From positions 186,001 to 250,000 of the forward strand of contig WIXG01000073.1 in the NCBI GenBank assembly GCA_009869945.1: DNA of 64,000 nucleotides, in the 5' to 3' direction. Below the pieces are notes generated by a model, which did no database searches, was not told the DNA's origin, and saw only the letters and a program-made list of their open reading frames with translations. A program made the translations under genes and the position numbers. Position 1 is the stretch's first letter. Each line of letters opens with the position of its first letter. Positions 2,589 through 39,294 of the stretch are shown piece after piece. The stretch is from Mesaphorura yosii (lineage: Eukaryota; Arthropoda; Collembola; Poduromorpha; Tullbergiidae).

Positions 2589-4176
2589 CTAGCGCCGGAC
2601 GCGGTGAGCGTTTCCGTAAAGACTGAAATTATCACATGATACATGAATGATTGCCATCATATTCAAAGATTTTATGACTGACGTAACTAAAAGACTGAAT
2701 AAACTGTACTTACGTTTTGTACATGTCCGTCTTGACATAATCCAGCAAGTGATGCGTGCCCAATACGTAGTGATCCTGTAGTAGAGGGGCCAGCGGATTT
2801 TCCTCCAGACGAATGACGCTGCGATTGCCTCCAAGATCCAAGTGTGCTACATTCACAATTCGCATTCGTTAATTTAAGCTCCGCATACATAAGTTAAATT
2901 CGATCAGTTCACTATTTTTCTTACCAATTTCCGGTGGCACCAACTGAAGCCCATTCCCTTGCGCATGAAGTTCACGAAGGCGGGTCAAGTTGCCAATTTC
3001 CCGTGGAATATACTCAATTTTGTTGTTTCGAATCACAAGCTGAGAGAAAATCAGGTTAAATCACTGCTTAGCAAATATTTTGTTATGATTCCTCAAAACT
3101 TACAATCTGTAGATTCCTGAGTCGACCAATTTCAGGTGAGATGCTCCTAAGGAAATTGTCTCCAAGATACAAGGCACGCAGCGATTCTATGTTCACAAAG
3201 GAATACACAATTAGAATTCGATTAGAAGGCCAGGCCAAGAATCGCACCGGCGCACATTTCTTACCCATCATCCAGAAATTGGCCGAAAGGCCATCCTCAC
3301 TCAAATTGTTGTGGGTCACGTCCAGCACTTCAAGCATTGGACAGGCACCAAATCCACGCCCCAACGAAACAATGCGATTTAAGGCCACTGAAACACGAAA
3401 CAGGAATGTTCTTACAGAATGATTGAAACGCATTTATCCTCCATGGCACATGGCATAGGCATTATAAAAAAAACATACCATTTAAAATGCGAAGCTTTGG
3501 TAGTGACGAAATTGCCGTTGGAAGCTCTTCTAGTTGATTGTTGAACAACGTAAGAATCTCCAGATTCATGAGTGTGGCGATGGACGATGGAATACCTAAA
3601 TGATGACATAAACGAGTTCAGGAAAAACATCTTTGCTTTGCAGTTGCTGAACCGCACTTCATGACAGAAGTTTTAATGGCGCTGAGATGATGTCTTACTT
3701 TTGATCTTGTTGTGGCTCAGAGTAAGCCGAGTGACAAATTCCAATGAAACTGCAACGAGAAAGAAAGACGATGCATATTCATTGTGTACGTTTGGGTGTC
3801 GAGATTCACTCGAAAGTGAAAGGGTCATTAAACATTTTAAGCTCTGCTCCTAATGAAGCACATGTCTCTCATCAAGACACATCACAAGCCGAATAGAAAA
3901 ATTGGCTCGAGACACAAACAGAGTATCTTTGCCCCTCTCAAAAATGGAACCTTGCCCAAATTCCATTTATGGTCAAATCGATAATAAAAAAATGGGCAAA
4001 GACTAAATGTGGGCGAACGCCCAAAACAAGATTGAATTAAGGTGCGTACAATTGTTGTTCTATTGCTTACACAAGCCAGGCAGCTCCTCCATGGCCATCA
4101 ACCCCTTGTCCACCAGATCCAGCTCTGGATTCCGGATTTCGCGAGCCTCCTCAAGCACACGTTTAGCCTTCGTCAT
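2589..4176 (-). CDS. RSU1: Ras suppressor protein 1 (leucine-rich repeat adaptor), complete
   Basis: Cytoplasmic leucine-rich repeat protein that binds PINCH in the integrin-linked kinase/PINCH/parvin adhesion complex and influences Ras/JNK signalling (family knowledge). Minus-strand exons in coding order: 4176..4071, 3749..3699, 3595..3479, 3387..3265, 3186..3104, 3039..2925, 2846..2714, 2622..2589; together 762 bases, 253 aa, with all phases matching. Visible landmarks are LTLSHNKI, LFNNQLEELP, GRGFGACPMLEVLD, NNLSEDGL, SLRALYLGDNFL, REIGNLTRLREL and the C-cap region around ENPLAPLLQDHYVLG, each aligning in order with vertebrate RSU1. The protein ends at VRR soon after the YKTLYG motif, so it lacks most of the Lys-rich tail of the 277-aa human protein. 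The ATG at 4176 gives the expected N-terminus. It converges with the hnRNP gene and diverges from channel A. Confidence 0.95.
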
Positions 4177-6091: not shown

Positions 6092-8316
6092 ATGCTATCA
6101 GCTTTCGAATTCGTGACGACCGTCGCATTTCTCGTCCTCTCCTGCGTCGGCTTTCAGCAGCAGTATGCCGGAGCTACTGGATATTATACCCCAGCGGATA
6201 TTCCGGTCTTAAAGTAAATGTCCTAATTTTATCACTAACCACGCCCTTTTAATCGTAATTACACCTCGATGGGTGGATTTGACCTTTCCGTGCCCTTTTT
6301 TCAGTATCAGCTCAAGCCTCAGTGAGCAGGACGCTCTGGATCGGCTTCTGAATCGCTCTCGGTATGATACGCGAAGTGGGCCACCTTCAGATGGTACGAG
6401 CGAAGACAGTGAGTGCAAAGAGTTCCGGTTTGCATCATGTGATTAAGTTCTGTTCGATTTTTTAGTTCCCGTCATCGTGCAGATGGGTATTCTGCTCCTT
6501 GTTGTTGCCTCACCTGACGAATCCTCACTCGTAAGTCGACTCGCAATTAATTACCGGGGCTGTTGGCAAACAACATTGATTGATGAGCGAGCGCTAATAT
6601 TTACTGCTATTTCATTAGAAATACGAGATTGACTTTCTGTTAAACATGGAGTGGATGGACAACAGACTGCGCTACAGAATAATCGACGAGGACGACGGCC
6701 TTCACAAAAGACAACGCCCATTCACAAGATCCCAGTACGAGCAAGAGAAACAATACTCAATCCACAACTACGCTGCGCTGCCACTGAAATACGAGCAATT
6801 GAAGAAGGGATTCCTGGACGGACTGCATCATTCTGATGTCGTCTGGATTCCCGACATTTACTTTGTAAAACATGGTGAATTCCGACAACACATCGAGCCC
6901 AAACACCTGGCACTCAGGATTTTTCCGGATGGACGGATTTTATTCACTACGAGAAAGTATTTGATTTTGTCGTGCTCTGGTGAACCACAGGTGAAGAGTT
7001 AGCTCGTTGTTACTACTTTAATTCCGAAACTGACCACAGTTCTTAAAACCTGTTAGGTTTTTCCATTTGACGTTGCAAACTGCTCGTTTTCGCTGGAAAG
7101 TGGTAATTTTTTCATTACATTTACAAAAGAACACGACTTTAAGCATTTAATAACCACTGAATCCTCTTGCAATTTACAATCTGCAGTTGTGCACGAGCAA
7201 GATCTGCTGGATTTTCAGTGGTTCAACAACTCCAGACATTTGAAGGCCTCAGACTCGTTGAGAAGAGTGAACACTTACTTTGTGTCGAATATGACAGGAT
7301 ACTGCCCACATAAGTCTGCACATGGCAGAGGTAATCGTACCCCACATATCAATCTTAATCGTGATTGTCACCTGTGCTAACTTGGCGAACACGCGAACTC
7401 ATTTAATAGGCGAATTCAGCTGTCTTCAGGTCGAGATGATTTTCAGCCGTGACCGGGCTTATTATTTCACAACAGTCTTCATCCCTGGCATAATTTTGGT
7501 GACATCATCGTTCATCACGTTCTGGCTGGAATGGAATGCTGTGGCCGCACGAATCATGCTTGGCGTGACGACAATGCTCAACTTTTTCATCACGAGGTAA
7601 ACCGGGCTCACGAACTTTCTCAATTATGCGGCAATCCTGCGACAAGCCTTTGCAACCCTCGTTGACTTTGGCTTTTTGCACATTAACAGCAATCGATTTC
7701 GGGTCACACTTCCCGTCGTGTCGGAACTTCATGCGATGAATATTTGGGAAGGGTTTTCCATGAGTTTCATTTACTCGGCACTGCTTGAATTCATCATCGT
7801 GAACTACGTGGGAAGGAAAAGGCCGAGAATATTCACAAAGGCAGAGACGGCAAAAGTAAGATTAGTACAAAATTACTTTCACGTAGCGCCCAACCCAACC
7901 GAAATGCTATCGCTAAAGTGCTTAGTACTCAGTCACTTCCTTACCCTTAATTTTGATGCCATGCTTTGATTAAACTCAGGGCATCGAGCAGTCACCCGAT
8001 GAGAATAATGAGAATTTGGACACGCAGCAAGAAGCGGCGGAACCGGGGAGAAAGTCGCCCAATCTGCTGAACATTAATATTCAGGTAGTACATTGACGTC
8101 AATTTCAAAGCGGTGGAGTGGCTTTCAACTTCAAACAGAATTTTCAACCATCAAACTAATGACATTTGTGTTTCGCAGGTGCTTCAGCAGCGCATGTTTC
8201 AGGACCCCATCAAGACAGCGAAAACGATTGATGTCATATCGAGAATTGTATTCCCAGTCGCGTACTCCATTGTTCTAGTTGTTTTCTTTGTTAAGTTTCT
8301 TGGCGTTTTTAATTAG
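6092..8316 (+). CDS. Cys-loop ligand-gated channel subunit A, Hodor/pHCl-2-like, complete
   Basis: Pentameric plasma-membrane channel subunit of the arthropod pH/zinc-responsive chloride-channel group (Drosophila CG11340/hodor, CG6927, CG7589 relatives). Exons: 6092..6213, 6305..6408, 6466..6530, 6619..6990, 7057..7102, 7187..7330, 7410..7596, 7690..7855, 7980..8084, 8179..8316; 482 aa, phases consistent. A hydrophobic signal peptide occupies about residues 1-21. The Cys-loop is C216-x13-C230 with the FPFD core, and a second pair C276/C289 lies in loop C, as in GluCl/GlyR/pHCl channels. M1 is about 303-325 (IPGIILV), M2 327-350, M3 363-386, M4 458-480; the M3-M4 loop is short. Family motifs include DGLHH, VWIPDIYFVKHG, SELHAMNIW and VNYVGRKRP. 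Oddity: M2 reads AAR, not PAR, and has Ile at 13' instead of Thr, so anion selectivity is uncertain. The ligand cannot be told from sequence. Confidence 0.93.
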
Positions 8317-33449: not shown

Positions 33450-36400
33450 ATGCTGAATCAATCTTCATCCATTTTCATGCTATTTTTGGCATCGTGTTGC
33501 TTTCTTCCAAGACTGGGTCAGATATCAGCCTATCATCATCGCTCGTCGTACGAAGTTCATCCGGACGATATCCCGAGCTTCCCGTGAGTGCTGTTCATGA
33601 CGCTCTCGGATTCCACGTGCAGTAATTAACGTGATAAAAGTATGCTCTTCTCTTTCCGCAGTATCAGCTCCGACTTGAGTGAAAAGGAAGGGTTGGATCG
33701 GTTACTTATTAAAAGCAGATATGATTACCGGTCGATGCCTCCTACGAACGGTAAGTTTCCTTCCATTAAAAACCACACACAGTCAGGGCGTGAGTTAACG
33801 TGGCAAATGAATTTCCTTCCTGTTCCAGGAACTCTCACCGTAAGCGTAAGCGTGCTCCTTCTCACTCTCGCGTCGCCTGACGAATCGTCGCTGGTGAGTC
33901 GTTTCTGCAGATCTGACATTAGATTAGCTTCCAATTTAATACGTGTCATCATTCTTTTTTGGTTTGGGTTCCGCTCTTTCAGTCTTTGTGATTATTTTCT
34001 CATCTCCGTACTCGTCACGCTCGCGCCACGTTTTGTTTGGCCAGTAATGTTCTAATTTATTAGATCTCGCGTCTCGCCGCATGCACGCTAGAAAAATATT
34101 TTCCTTGTATGCTTTGATGATTCGACAATAAAATGAATGCGCTACGAAGAAAGATCGGATCAGCAGACAAGGAAGCGAGTTACTGCAATGCAGTGGCCGT
34201 GGAAGTGAAAGGCGACGAGAGAAAGTAGATTTCGCACGCGTGCCCGTCCTTCCATACATTGAATCATTCTCCCTCATGTACGTGCGATATTTTTGCTTCC
34301 GTATGTAAATACAAGTAGGGTCTACACGGCGTAAAATTCGCCATTGTGGCTCCTTTGGCGGCTACCGAAAAGGGCTGGAGCTGCAAATTAAGTTGTCAGC
34401 GGTCGCCGATAATTGCTCGAGGATGCCGGGAATCGTGAATGGCGAATGACGAATGACGATTGCGAATTGCAAATTGTGACCCGCTGACGATGGTTATTCG
34501 TGAATTTATGCTTTCGCGTCATACACAGCCTCTTGCATATTACATAATTGAGAGGTATAAATTACAAGCTCCAGTTTGCTTTGTTGATGTTAAAATCCAG
34601 GAGCAGAGGAATGTTTAGGATCAAAATCTAACCACCACGGGCCCCTTTGGCGATTGTCGACAAGGGGGGTAATTAAGGGCGCGTGCCTAGCATGAGCAAA
34701 CATTAAAGACTTTTCCTTAAAGGGTTCGGAAGCAGGGTACAAGAAATCTCATCGTCGACGGGTTTCATGTCTAAGCATGAAACCGGCCTGCAATACATAA
34801 GCCTACTCTTATCATATGTGCAGTGTGTGTGCAATTGTCGGCGACCGCTGACAACTTAATTGCAGCTCCAGCCCTTTTCGGTAGCCGCCAAAGGAGCCAT
34901 AATGGCGAATTTTACGCCGTGTAGACCCTACTAATATAGACAGTACAACAAGCCTTAGGCTTTAACGCTTCGTTGGAATATCAACCAACTAAATCTGCTA
35001 TCTGCTCTTGTGGTTTGGACGTAGCGCCAAAAGTCATCGCATGTTGTCTGTTGTTGTTAAATATAGCAATAATAAAGCCTCAGTTTATTGCACGCAGTGC
35101 TGCGCTGACGTGATTCCTCACCAGGCAGGACAAGGCTGATTTGCTGTGAAAAGTAAAGACAAATCAGTGAAAAGCGAAAGACGGGCTCGTTTCTCTCGGC
35201 CTAGATTTGGTGCGCCAGCAGATCCCCAGAGGGTATCAAAGTAATAGACGTTGTAAAGGCGAGGGTACAGCCAAACTCTGGAATTGGGCGTAAGTAGTAA
35301 CACGATTTTTATCAGACGACGGCAACACGCTGATGAAAAGATTGCTGCTGCATGCGCGGCGCGGCGTGGAGAAAGTATGTAGCATTTTCTCCTTGAGTGA
35401 ACTGCATTCGAAAAGATGCTGATGCATTTACGACTACATGACAGAAGACGTCAGAAATAATTTGCTGCGCTCATTCTAAAAATGGTTCGACAGTAGTGCA
35501 CCGCACTGCCACAAATCCTTGACGCATTTGCTTCGTGGCGATGATGGCTAGACTCATAATACGACAGAGCCGACAGACTCGGTGGAGGCGCCGGGAAGTG
35601 TTCATTGGAGGAGTTCATGTACACGTTGATATTAATGAGCGAAATATCATTGACGCATTTTTCATTAACCGACCCAAAATACAAACTGATTTACATTTTC
35701 TACACTTACGAGGGTCTTTCAGATGACACGCCTGCAATGCACTTGCTCTCACTCGGATATTAAACTAACTTCCAACGTCTCGTGGGAAATTAAATTTATG
35801 ATTCCGCAGTCGCAGTCCAGCAAAGAAGAAAGAAAATTATTTATAAGTTTACCTTTGCATTTGTTGCCAATTCATTTCATTACGATTCCTTTCTCGGTCC
35901 CATTCTTCACTATAAAATAACATTCTCATTGCCCTGCCTTTGCTTTGTACAGAAATATGAAATAGAATTTCTGATGGACATGTCATGGGAGGACTTTCGG
36001 TTACGCTACACAATAGTAAACGAGACTGGACCACTTCCCACGGAGGCCCCGGGAGTCCCGTACAACTACGACGCGATGCCGATGAGACTCAATCATCGCA
36101 AACGACCTTTCCTCGACGGACTTCATCATCACGAGATGGTCTGGATTCCGGACGTGTACTACGTCAAGCACGGCGATTTCCGGTACAATTTGGACCCGAA
36201 GCATCTTTCACTGCGAATTTATCCCAACGGAACAATTCAATATACGACAAGGTACGGATCACAGCGGCTGGCGCTGCGCTGCGTGCGAACGACGCAGTTA
36301 ATAGTAATCATATTTTATTGTCGTATTTCAGTATTATGGTAATGCGCTTCTCTGTCGCACTTCCAAGGGAAAGAATCCATTGTTCTTTGTCGTTTGAAGA

Positions 36401-39294
36401 CTAGAATGAGCTGTACGTGAAGCGAATGCACGCTTTCAATTCGGCAAGCAATTGCAAAAGCAATATAATGCCATAATTCAGTTTTAATTAACCTTTTCAT
36501 TCTGCCATTGTCCAATCCACGATACACGAAGGGAAACATTATTGCATACAATGCAAAACTGGTTTTAGCCAATCTAGCTTTTAAAACCGCTGGACAGAAG
36601 GCAGCATAAACAAAAGCACAACCAGAAATACTTCCCAGAAAGCTAAAATAGAAAAGTCTTGAGCCTCACAGCATTTGGAGATTGGCAATGAGAAAGAAAT
36701 GAAAGTTTTCCCCGAAGTTTTGAAATCTTGATTCCCTGATTCATCTTCTGATTTCTGAAGTCCCTTGTAAACTTTATCATATGCTGAGCCAGAGAACCGA
36801 ATCACATTCACTGCACGGGTCTGAATCTTGAATGAGGATGAGTGGCTCCCGATGAGAATTGCTCATACAAGCACGTGTCCTTTCTGTTCGCTGCGCCGCC
36901 GATACTGGTTCATTTTGATGATTGAACCAATTTATTTTATTCGCGCAAGGTTTACTTTACCTTCGTTTCACTGCTCGCTTTGATTTCTTTGATTGTAGAT
37001 TTCAATAATGACAAAAAGTGCGCATGAGAAGGAAAAAGTGAAAGCAGACAGAGCATGAATGTGTGTGTGGTTTTAGAAGCGAAACAGAAATGATAAATCA
37101 AACTCTACGTTTCATCTTCGATTTCGATCTGGCCATCATATGGCGTATGGAAAATTAAATAAAGCATGCAAAATGAAATGTAAACTTTGCTTCGTTTTTG
37201 CACATTTTCGCAAACTCAAAAATAAACGCAAGAATCCAACACACGAAAATAAAATCAAATCCTGAAATTCCAAAAGCAGCCAAAAATTCGCATGTTAAAT
37301 GGGCGTTGAGGGCCGCCGGGCTTTCCATTGCGATTTCCTGCTTTGCGAGCATAAATCTTCGGATCGTTAACGTCAGAAAAATTGGAACTGCAGCTACGAT
37401 AAATAATCTTTTGTACGCAGCTAACGATCGAAACATTGCGCCATTACTCATGTTCCTATTTACCACAAGTGTGAAAAGTGTATGAATTCATTTATGGTAT
37501 GTTCATATCAGGTTTTAAGAGATCTGATCAGATCGGCGTGAATTTCGAGTTTATGTTCTGTTATGAATGAATTAAGATACGTTCTGCATACGTTTTCTTT
37601 GAAATGTATGAGTGTTTAGATGCAAGTTCGTCATAAGCGTTCACTTCTTGTTGAGTCGCTGTCGAGTTCAGTTGCAAGTGATGTAACTTCCTTGAACTGG
37701 TTTTAATAAATTGCGAAATTAATTGCAGAGAAAATTGGAGTCAGGTTTTGTTTCGCTTCTTTTAGCATTTCACATTTTACTGATATCGAGTCAGGAATCG
37801 GGTAGGTGCTGCAGTTCGATAGTATACAACAAGCTATAATTTTAACGTTTCGCCCTTCCATACGCGTTGTTTCAGGTTTCCGCCCTCCTGGCCTTTAGAC
37901 TAAGTTTTTCTCGGCGTTCGTGCTAAGTGCAGATTTGTCAAATTCCTATTATTCCGGGTTCCACTGTGAAATAGCGCGATGCAGGTGTCGGTGTTGCTCT
38001 TGAAATGAATTCTAAAACTCCATGCGCTAATAATTTTTTGTGATTTCAGGAAACATTTAATTTTATCCTGCGAAGGCTCCCTTCCCAATTTCCCGTTCGA
38101 CGTGATCGTCTGTACCTTTTCGGTGGAAAGCGGTGAGCGTGAATATGACTGTCTCGTAGTAAAATGGTAATCTAAACCACAACTACTGAAATGTTTGTTG
38201 TTTTCGCAGTGTCGTACGAGGAAGATCGTCTGAAATTCGTCTGGCACGGACAAAAGGGTTACTTAAGAAAGTCTGAAAGTTTAAAAGAACTCAATGCTTA
38301 CCTTCAACAGAATATTACATCAAACTGTACCTCCGCTCATGAAAGAGGTCAGTTAATTGACAAAACATTCGTCCCTGTTCGTGACTAATTTGATTTTTAG
38401 TTGTCTATTCGTTATTTACAGGAAACTACAGTTGTCTCAACGTCAGCCTTCTGTTCAGTCGCGATAGAGCCTTCTACTTTACAACTGTATTTATTCCAGA
38501 CATTATTCTCGTCACCTCATCCTTCATCACGTTCTGGTTAGAATGGAATGCGGTGCCAGCAAGAATCATGCTCGGAGTCACAACCATGCTCAACTTTTTC
38601 ACAACTAGGTAAGTAACAGCAGTCTTCCTTGCGAACATGTTGACGCCAAGTTACTGATGCAATTTTGTCCACGATTTACAGCAACAGTTTTCGTGCCACG
38701 CTTCCTGTTGTGTCCGAACTGCACGCCATGAATATTTGGGATGCATTCTCAATGATTTTCATCTATTCATCTCTGCTTGAATTTGTCGTAGTCAATTGCA
38801 TCGGAAGGAAAAGACCAAGGCGGAAAGATTACGATGTAAGTGACGTTCCTCGAGTCCACACATAATGTGACGAAGATCTTTGCTAAGTTTGCTAATTTCT
38901 TCGCCCTGACTATGAAGGAAAATAAAATGCAGAGCATACAACCTTCACCGATAGGCCCTTCACCAGTGCCACAGCAAGACAGCAATCATCCGATTGAAAT
39001 TGTGGCTTGTACTTCATGTGGGCCTTCACCGTGTACTCATACAGTCAACAATTCCTGCAAGAAGGAACGCGTAAGTAGAGCCTGACCAGTAAAGTAAATA
39101 CTTCAACACAGTCAAGTTCTCCAGCAGCAGTAATTAAATGCTCTCTTCCTTCCTTACAGCCCTTCAGAGCACGAGTTGAAGAGAACCCGGTCAAAGTTGC
39201 GAAGACAATTGACGTGGTTTCAAGGGTTGCATTTCCAGTGGCCTACGCGGCGTTTCTTGTTTTCTTCTTCTACAATTTTGGTGCATTCAACTAA
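33450..39294 (+). CDS. Cys-loop ligand-gated chloride channel subunit B, Hodor/pHCl-2-like, complete
   Basis: Paralogue of the channel at 6.1-8.3 kb. Exons: 33450..33583, 33662..33750, 33829..33893, 35953..36251, 38050..38132, 38210..38347, 38422..38608, 38682..38835, 38918..39070, 39160..39294; 478 aa, phases consistent. Signal peptide about residues 1-24 (MLFLASCCFLP core). Cys-loop C203-x13-C217 with FPFD; second pair C263/C274 in loop C, next to an N-glycosylation site (NIT). M2 has the anion-channel signature PAR at 315-317 and Thr at 13' (330), so a chloride-conducting pore is expected. M1 reads IPDIILV, with Asp296 where A has Gly. The M3-M4 loop has C414, C417, C422 and C430, absent from A. 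Introns 3 (2,059 bp) and 4 (1,798 bp) are much longer than any in A; intron 3 carries a transposon. The acceptor before 38918 is weak (GAAG), so the start of exon 9 is the least certain join. Confidence 0.93.
34318..34416 (+). repeat. Left terminal inverted repeat of the MITE-like element
   Basis: Pairs with 34831..34928 in reverse complement over its whole length. It includes the words GGCTCCTTTGGCGG and GTTGTCAGCGGTCGCC, which recur inverted at the right end. Confidence 0.9.
34831..34928 (-). repeat. Right terminal inverted repeat of the MITE-like element
   Basis: Reverse complement of 34318..34416 apart from two substitutions and one missing A; ends in GACCC followed by TA. Confidence 0.9.
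34931..35952. other. Remainder of channel B intron 3
   Basis: About 1 kb of intron between the transposon and exon 4. It ends in a pyrimidine-rich acceptor (TTTGTACAG). No coding sequence or RNA gene was recognised. Confidence 0.6.
36252..38049. other. Channel B intron 4 (1,798 bp)
   Basis: Bounded by the donor GTACGG at 36252 and the acceptor TTTCAG ending at 38049; it splits the codon just before the Cys-loop. No internal gene or repeat was recognised. Short open frames on both strands have no visible motif. Confidence 0.7.

Follow-up and report, generated by a model that had tools for sequence, protein, structure and literature searches.

A duplicated Cys-loop channel gene of Mesaphorura yosii with derived residues at pore positions -2' and 13': a probable chloride-channel subunit with altered gating or conductance

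The stretch of DNA analysed here (hereafter the window) comprises 64,000 nucleotides of the collembolan Mesaphorura yosii, positions 186,001 to 250,000 of contig WIXG01000073.1 (C73) in assembly GCA_009869945.1, which spans 93.0 Mb in 1127 contigs. It contains two related genes of the Cys-loop pentameric ligand-gated channel type in the same orientation, channel A (6092–8316, plus strand) and its paralogue channel B (33450–39294, plus strand). In channel A, the pore-lining segment M2 has Ala at position -2' and Ile at position 13', both residues are derived, and the rest of the pore is conserved. Channel A is probably a working anion-selective subunit of the arthropod-type pH- and zinc-sensitive chloride channels (probably of the pHCl-2/Hodor/secCl kind), in which gating or conductance, and not charge preference, would have been retuned. 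The original prediction, made from the sequence of the window, had proposed that the loss of Pro -2' and Thr 13' may have altered selectivity, conductance or gating; of these, a change of gating or conductance in a chloride-channel subunit is the best reading, and the suggestion concerning charge selectivity is overdrawn.

The two residues lie in exon 7 of channel A (7410–7596), which encodes ...FWLEWNAVAARIMLGVTTMLNFFIT... and covers the end of loop C, M1 and M2 as far as 14', together with two bases of the 15' codon. The first base of exon 8 (7690–7855) completes this codon (Ser 15'), and the exon continues through positions 16'–23' of M2 (including Arg 17', Arg 19' and Val 20'), the M2-M3 loop and M3, giving an M2 that reads NAVAARIMLGVTTMLNFFITSNRFRVTLP. 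Ala -2' is encoded by GCC at 7544–7546 and Ile 13' by ATC at 7589–7591, as originally predicted; the adjoining Ala -1' (GCA) and Arg 0' (CGA) at 7547–7552 are unchanged, which agrees with the earlier reading that -1' had been kept. Exon 7 of channel B (38422–38608, plus strand) reads NAVPARIMLGVTTMLNFFTT and thus bears out the further claim that the paralogue retains Pro -2' and Thr 13', the residues also found in the closest solved structure, PDB 21wy. When the M2 segments of A, B and 21wy (as outgroup) are aligned, 22 of 28 columns are identical in all three, and 24 of 28 between A and B. Differences peculiar to A occupy exactly two columns, -2' and 13', and none is peculiar to B; those of 21wy alone are at 1' and 3', and all three sequences differ at 17' (Arg in A, Ser in B, Gly in 21wy) and 20'. 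Since Pro and Thr occur both in B and in the outgroup, and A and B are sisters, both changes arose on the branch leading to A. No description of Ala -2' or Ile 13' in the pHCl-2/Hodor/secCl subfamily was found in the open-licence papers searched.

Channel A was modelled by hand from the sequence as 10 exons encoding 482 amino acids, with exons 1–5 at 6092–6213, 6305–6408, 6466–6530, 6619–6990 and 7057–7102, and exons 6–10 at 7187–7330, 7410–7596, 7690–7855, 7980–8084 and 8179–8316, all on the plus strand. Its nine introns, each shorter than 125 bases, follow the GT-AG rule, and the 482 codons are free of stops and frame breaks. Both Pfam domains of the family score above their cut-offs (Neur_chan_LBD, 1.3e-24, 87.3 bits; Neur_chan_memb, 2.2e-15, 58 bits), and the Cys-loop, with its cysteines 13 residues apart (C-x13-C), is present in A as CSGEPQVFPFDVANC and in B as CEGSLPNFPFDVIVC. 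By both domains and the Cys-loop, channel A is a complete Cys-loop pentameric ligand-gated channel gene. An error of sequencing or assembly at one or both codons draws some weight from the single assembly, in which the exon 7 DNA of A has no second copy or allele across the 93 Mb except for B (70% identity). The coding sequence around both codons is nevertheless open and was assembled only once, and each codon differs by two bases from its counterpart in B (CCA and ACA), although one change each would suffice from a synonymous ancestor, so that such an error is very improbable. When the window was searched in translation for an alternative M2 exon of A, with the M1-M2 piece as query, only A, B and two chance-like matches (E 1.4 and 2.6) were returned.

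Channel B, likewise modelled by hand, has 10 exons and 478 amino acids, GT-AG introns throughout, an open frame, and both domains above cut-off (LBD 92 bits, memb 69.9 bits); 256 of 459 aligned residues are identical between the two channels. The intron near the Cys-loop is placed differently in the two genes, after GEPQ in A (region 6619–7102) and after TTR in B (region 35953–38132), where it measures 1798 bases; two introns of B are about 2 kb long. A query of the whole genome with the M1-M3 region gave high identity for A and B only, the next gene being 42% identical. The top solved-structure match of both is PDB 21wy, named 'Ligand-gated ion channel pHCl-A' (E 2.1e-110 for A and 2.4e-127 for B), and the second-best match of A is far weaker (E 1.4e-45). 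In a tree of 19 chosen M1-M3 rows, in which 6 of the 16 inner branches are starred, A, B and 21wy form a clade with support of 100/100, and within it A and B are sisters (94/89). The branch of these three is long, and the tree program warned that it meets another long branch, that of a divergent gene of this genome (L015). By closest match and clade, A and B belong to the subfamily of pHCl-A (21wy). This subfamily probably corresponds to insect Group I (Hodor/pHCl-2/secCl), the Hodor group named in the original prediction, a placement that draws in part on the long divergent branch.

It is generally held that the residue at -1' decides charge selectivity in these channels. Channel A has no acidic residue from -5' to 23'; of the features typical of anion channels, the neutral -1' and Arg 0' are present and the full PAR motif and a polar or small 13' are absent, and where cation channels have an acidic -1', A has Ala. 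Arg 0' has been termed absolutely conserved in chloride channels, and negatively charged residues at -2' or -1' are expected of cation channels (PMC4569296). With Ala -1', Arg 0' and the arginines of the outer mouth all retained, channel A would be expected to stay anion-selective. The combination Ala -2', Ala -1', Arg 0' also occurs in established anion receptors, namely in the GABA-A beta2/beta3 chains, which read DASAARVALGITTVLTMTT in three PDB chains, and in the beta chains of the glycine receptor (GlyR), which read DASAARVPLGIFSVLSLAS in four. For GlyR beta, PMC10011588 gives Ala at -2' in zebrafish and Gly in human, and the PDB chains show Ala. In LGC-55, conversion to a cation channel was obtained by an M1-M2 loop swap from RRSLPA to PDSGE, which introduced Glu (PMC4562599). 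Insect GRD and LCCH3, which do not have PAR, form cation heteromers (PMC2064938). In the genome studied here, the GRD-like gene (L054) has Asp -1' and the LCCH3-like gene (L018) has Ser -2' and Ala -1', an arrangement that fits -1' as the deciding site.

To place these residues in a wider context, the pores of related genes in the genome were compiled by hand into a table of 59 readable pores, a lower bound since the genome searches score the best candidates only, with duplicate loci merged and the designations RDL-, GRD-, LCCH3- and GluCl-like assigned by likeness. Rows with -2' or 13' obscured by an intron or by the end of the locus were omitted, among them L024 ('TAR'), L043 ('TGR'), L026 and L027 ('PGR'), L056, L064, L067, L068, L069, L080, L081, L082 and L088; two exons were joined by eye in L028, L034, L040, L054 and L074, the splice being checked for L034 only. 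The 59 pores divide into 41 whose -1' is not acidic (Arg 0' being present in 40), nine of the GEK type, defined by an acidic -1' and Lys 0', eight with an acidic -1' and Arg 0', and one (L058) with Glu -1' and Cys 0'. Among the 41, position 13' is Thr in 15, Ala in 15, Ser in six, Ile in two, and Gly, Val and Asn in one each. The usual residue at 13' is Thr in anion channels and a hydrophobic one in cation channels, yet Ile and Leu have been found in two spider GluCl subunits (PMC4569296). Ile 13' is thus rare in pores of the anion type without being unique to A. At -2', Pro is found in 13 of the 41 and is missing from 28 (Glu in 20, Asp in three, Ala in two, Val in two and Ser in one), which shows the wide variability of this position and is not proof that such pores pass chloride.

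Several considerations weigh against channel A as a chloride-channel subunit with retuned gating. The 20 pores with Glu -2' and the three with Asp -2' cannot be counted as chloride-passing, and cation channels tend to have a hydrophobic 13', with Val in eight and Met in one of the nine GEK-type pores. In Caenorhabditis elegans, LGC-50 has Ser where the Pro would be and is cation-selective, its -1' residue not being given in the passage cited (PMC8536830), so that the absence of this Pro may be of greater consequence than assumed. A measurement of a Thr-to-Ile change at 13' in an anion channel was not found in the literature searched. From LGC-50 and the hydrophobic 13' of cation channels it can be argued that losing Pro -2' and gaining Ile 13' made channel A non-selective or weakly permeable to cations, a view that can also call on the glycine receptor, whose conversion into a cation channel reportedly combined changes at -2', -1' and 13'. 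The 'removing Pro' of that mutant is said to have been a deletion, whereas A has a substitution, and -1', the third site of the conversion, is still Ala in a pore that carries no acidic residue. The GABA-A gamma2 mutation P302L, at -2', left anion selectivity intact (shift of the chloride reversal potential in diluted NaCl 14.73 versus 13.99 mV; PMC5301078), although this comparison concerns Leu in one subunit of five and not Ala in all five. Nor are the GRD/LCCH3 heteromers a close parallel, given the additional Asp -1' of the GRD-like gene in this genome. Together with the AAR sequence of known anion receptors, the unchanged -1' and the behaviour of P302L led us to drop a pore flipped to cations as the leading reading, and we regard even a partial shift of selectivity in A as quite improbable. 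The part of the original prediction that does hold up is the effect on conductance or gating, which is plausible for two derived changes that line the pore.

The reading that we favour, a chloride-channel subunit with retuned gating or conductance, would operate as follows. Channels A and B would have been duplicated from a shared ancestor, after which both substitutions would have affected the regions of the pore that open and close it. According to published descriptions, the gate for desensitisation lies at -2' and that for activation at 9' (PMC10011588, PMC5301078). Replacement of Pro -2' by the smaller and more flexible Ala would alter the intracellular constriction that acts as the former gate, and Ile in place of Thr 13' would add a further ring of hydrophobic side chains, a helical turn above the gate at Leu 9'. 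The direction of the second effect would be towards a dry, shut pore, and hydrophobic gating has been described in the glycine receptor (PMC6945115). In combination, the two changes would most likely alter desensitisation, unitary conductance and ease of opening. The P302L mutation in gamma2 reduced conductance to 24% of control and increased desensitisation (PMC5301078).

Comparison of A with B gives an indication of how selection has acted on the two copies. Only the nonsynonymous divergence (dN) is quoted, the synonymous divergence (dS) being saturated (returned as -1) and YN00 giving errors or no value; for TM1-3, dN is 0.112, and 89 of 109 residues are shared by A and B. Saturated dS together with low dN in TM1-3 implies strong constraint on the membrane domain of at least one copy, and the intact frame of 482 codons at such a distance argues that A itself has been constrained. 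Lineage-specific changes are more numerous in A overall (46 versus 21 in B, chi2 9.3), an excess that could be taken to mean that A is a fading copy under relaxed, neutral drift, in which case both pore changes would be meaningless. However, the reading frame and splice sites of A are undamaged, with no stop in the frame, its membrane domain is still close to that of B, and the lineage-specific residues of TM1-3 (nine in A, five in B, chi2 1.1) show no significant excess, so that drift is rather improbable; a pseudogene was dropped from consideration on the intact model and the conserved membrane domain. The M4 part contributes six changes in each copy, and the extracellular domain 31 in A versus 10 in B (chi2 10.8). 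Channel A has thus changed faster mainly outside its pore, a pattern more in keeping with altered sensing or assembly than with a rebuilt pore. The new role that was originally suggested to have followed duplication would agree better with the rapidly changing extracellular domain than with the pore residues from which it had been drawn.

The same extracellular excess suits an accessory subunit, in which channel A would form no channel alone but would join B in heteromers and tune them through its pore and its fast-evolving extracellular domain. This proposal overlaps with the favoured one, and dependence on a partner is known in the presumed subfamily, as CG6927 is functional in oocytes only together with secCl (PMC6522505), which makes the accessory role a serious rival. 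Spider GABA-beta and grd subunits, which have no Pro -2', are expected by the authors to act in heteromers (PMC4569296), and GlyR beta, with the same AAR, gives no functional homomer (PMC10011588). On the other hand, both A and B keep both domains, and GABA-A beta3 does homopentamerise with AAR (PDB 4cof, five chains of one sequence). We consider an obligate accessory role possible, if somewhat doubtful, and under the favoured reading too A may well partner with B or with another subunit.

The survey provided one further lead. The two pores with Ala -2' and the two with Ile 13' among the 41 are the same two genes, channel A and L034 (contig C76, near 179290), an LCCH3-like paralogue of GABA-beta whose M2 is split by an intron and reads APAARVALGITTILTLLITHNNVRSTLP when spliced. 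Both have relatives with Thr 13' in the same genome, B in the case of A and L018 in that of L034. Ala -2' occurs once more outside the 41, in L054, a gene with an acidic -1' (Asp) and with Thr 13'. As the coincidence was noticed after the fact and involves only two genes, it is treated as a lead. Ala -2' and Ile 13' might conceivably be a coupled pair that evolved twice, a repeated route from a duplicated anion subunit to a tightly shut, differently conducting partner subunit that stays chloride-selective, although we consider this unlikely; in a bolder version, pores with this pair may become poorly selective.

Other genes in the table deserve mention in their own right. Glu -1' within an otherwise anion-type M2 (e.g. 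SARLERVAIGITTVLALTTFIS) occurs in L032 (C17), L031 (C523), L025 (C654), L033 and L038 (C561), and L041 and L037 (C574), six of these seven genes having an open frame of more than 400 codons around the match; they are possibly cation-selective relatives of GABA/glycine-type channels. Glu -2' with a non-acidic -1' and an M2 like 'MIEARMAIVMTTLLTLTAMFSSVRESTP' is found in 16 genes (L029, L030, L036, L042, L045–L048, L050, L051, L053, L055, L076, L077, L084 and L090), which with four others make up the 20 Glu -2' pores mentioned above. L015 (C577) and L022 (C46) are highly divergent; their pores carry two additional residues immediately ahead of Gly -1' and Arg 0', and have Val or Asn at 13'. In the window itself, exons of a leucine-rich repeat (LRR) protein, recognised by Pfam LRR matches, lie upstream of A at about 2869–3433 on the minus strand.

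If channel A is still a chloride channel, nature has separated -2' and 13' from -1', positions that were reportedly changed together in laboratory work, and the comparison of A with B would reveal what -2' and 13' do alone in one channel background. This would offer a clean test of the control of gate and conductance in a little-studied, largely non-neuronal family of chloride channels. If A should prove not to be selective for chloride, the role of -1' as the deciding site for charge would have to be reconsidered. The find itself is a modest one, a natural variant of a known channel type and, as a lead, the repeated Ala -2'/Ile 13' pair.

Among known systems, the structure of pHCl-A (21wy) is the nearest, sharing the M1-M3 signature with A and 84 of 109 residues; it has Pro -2', Ser 1', Ile 3', Thr 13', Gly 17' and Ser 20', where A has Ala, Ile, Leu, Ile, Arg and Val, respectively. 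The insect Group I channels pHCl-2/Hodor (CG11340), secCl (CG7589) and CG6927, the probable subfamily of A, are divergent arthropod anion channels of variable copy number. They are said to rank with the most divergent of channel subunits, and copies lie in tandem in a beetle and an ant, whereas flies have retrocopies (PMC4938653); they are termed arthropod-specific (PMC6522505), and have one member in a tick and two in a spider (PMC9219234); the copies differ in expression and function (PMC4938653, PMC6522505). For secCl, a motif that strongly predicts chloride selectivity has been described (PMC6522505); A does not have the Pro of the PAR motif. GABA-A beta2/beta3 resemble A in Ala -2', Ala -1', Arg 0' and Leu 9', and differ in having Thr 13', in being gated by GABA and in belonging to another subfamily of the tree, while glycine receptor beta shares Ala -2', Ala -1' and Arg 0' but has Ser 13', Pro 2' and Phe 6'. 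L034 matches A at -2', -1', 0', 13' and 14' (Ala, Ala, Arg, Ile and Thr), but it is a member of another subfamily, its place in the tree being distant from A and next to GABA-A beta and L018 (96/98). Finally, the spider subunit CsGluCl1 has, like A, Ile 13' in a putative anion channel, but unlike A it belongs to the glutamate-channel family and is also altered at -2' and -1' (PMC4569296).
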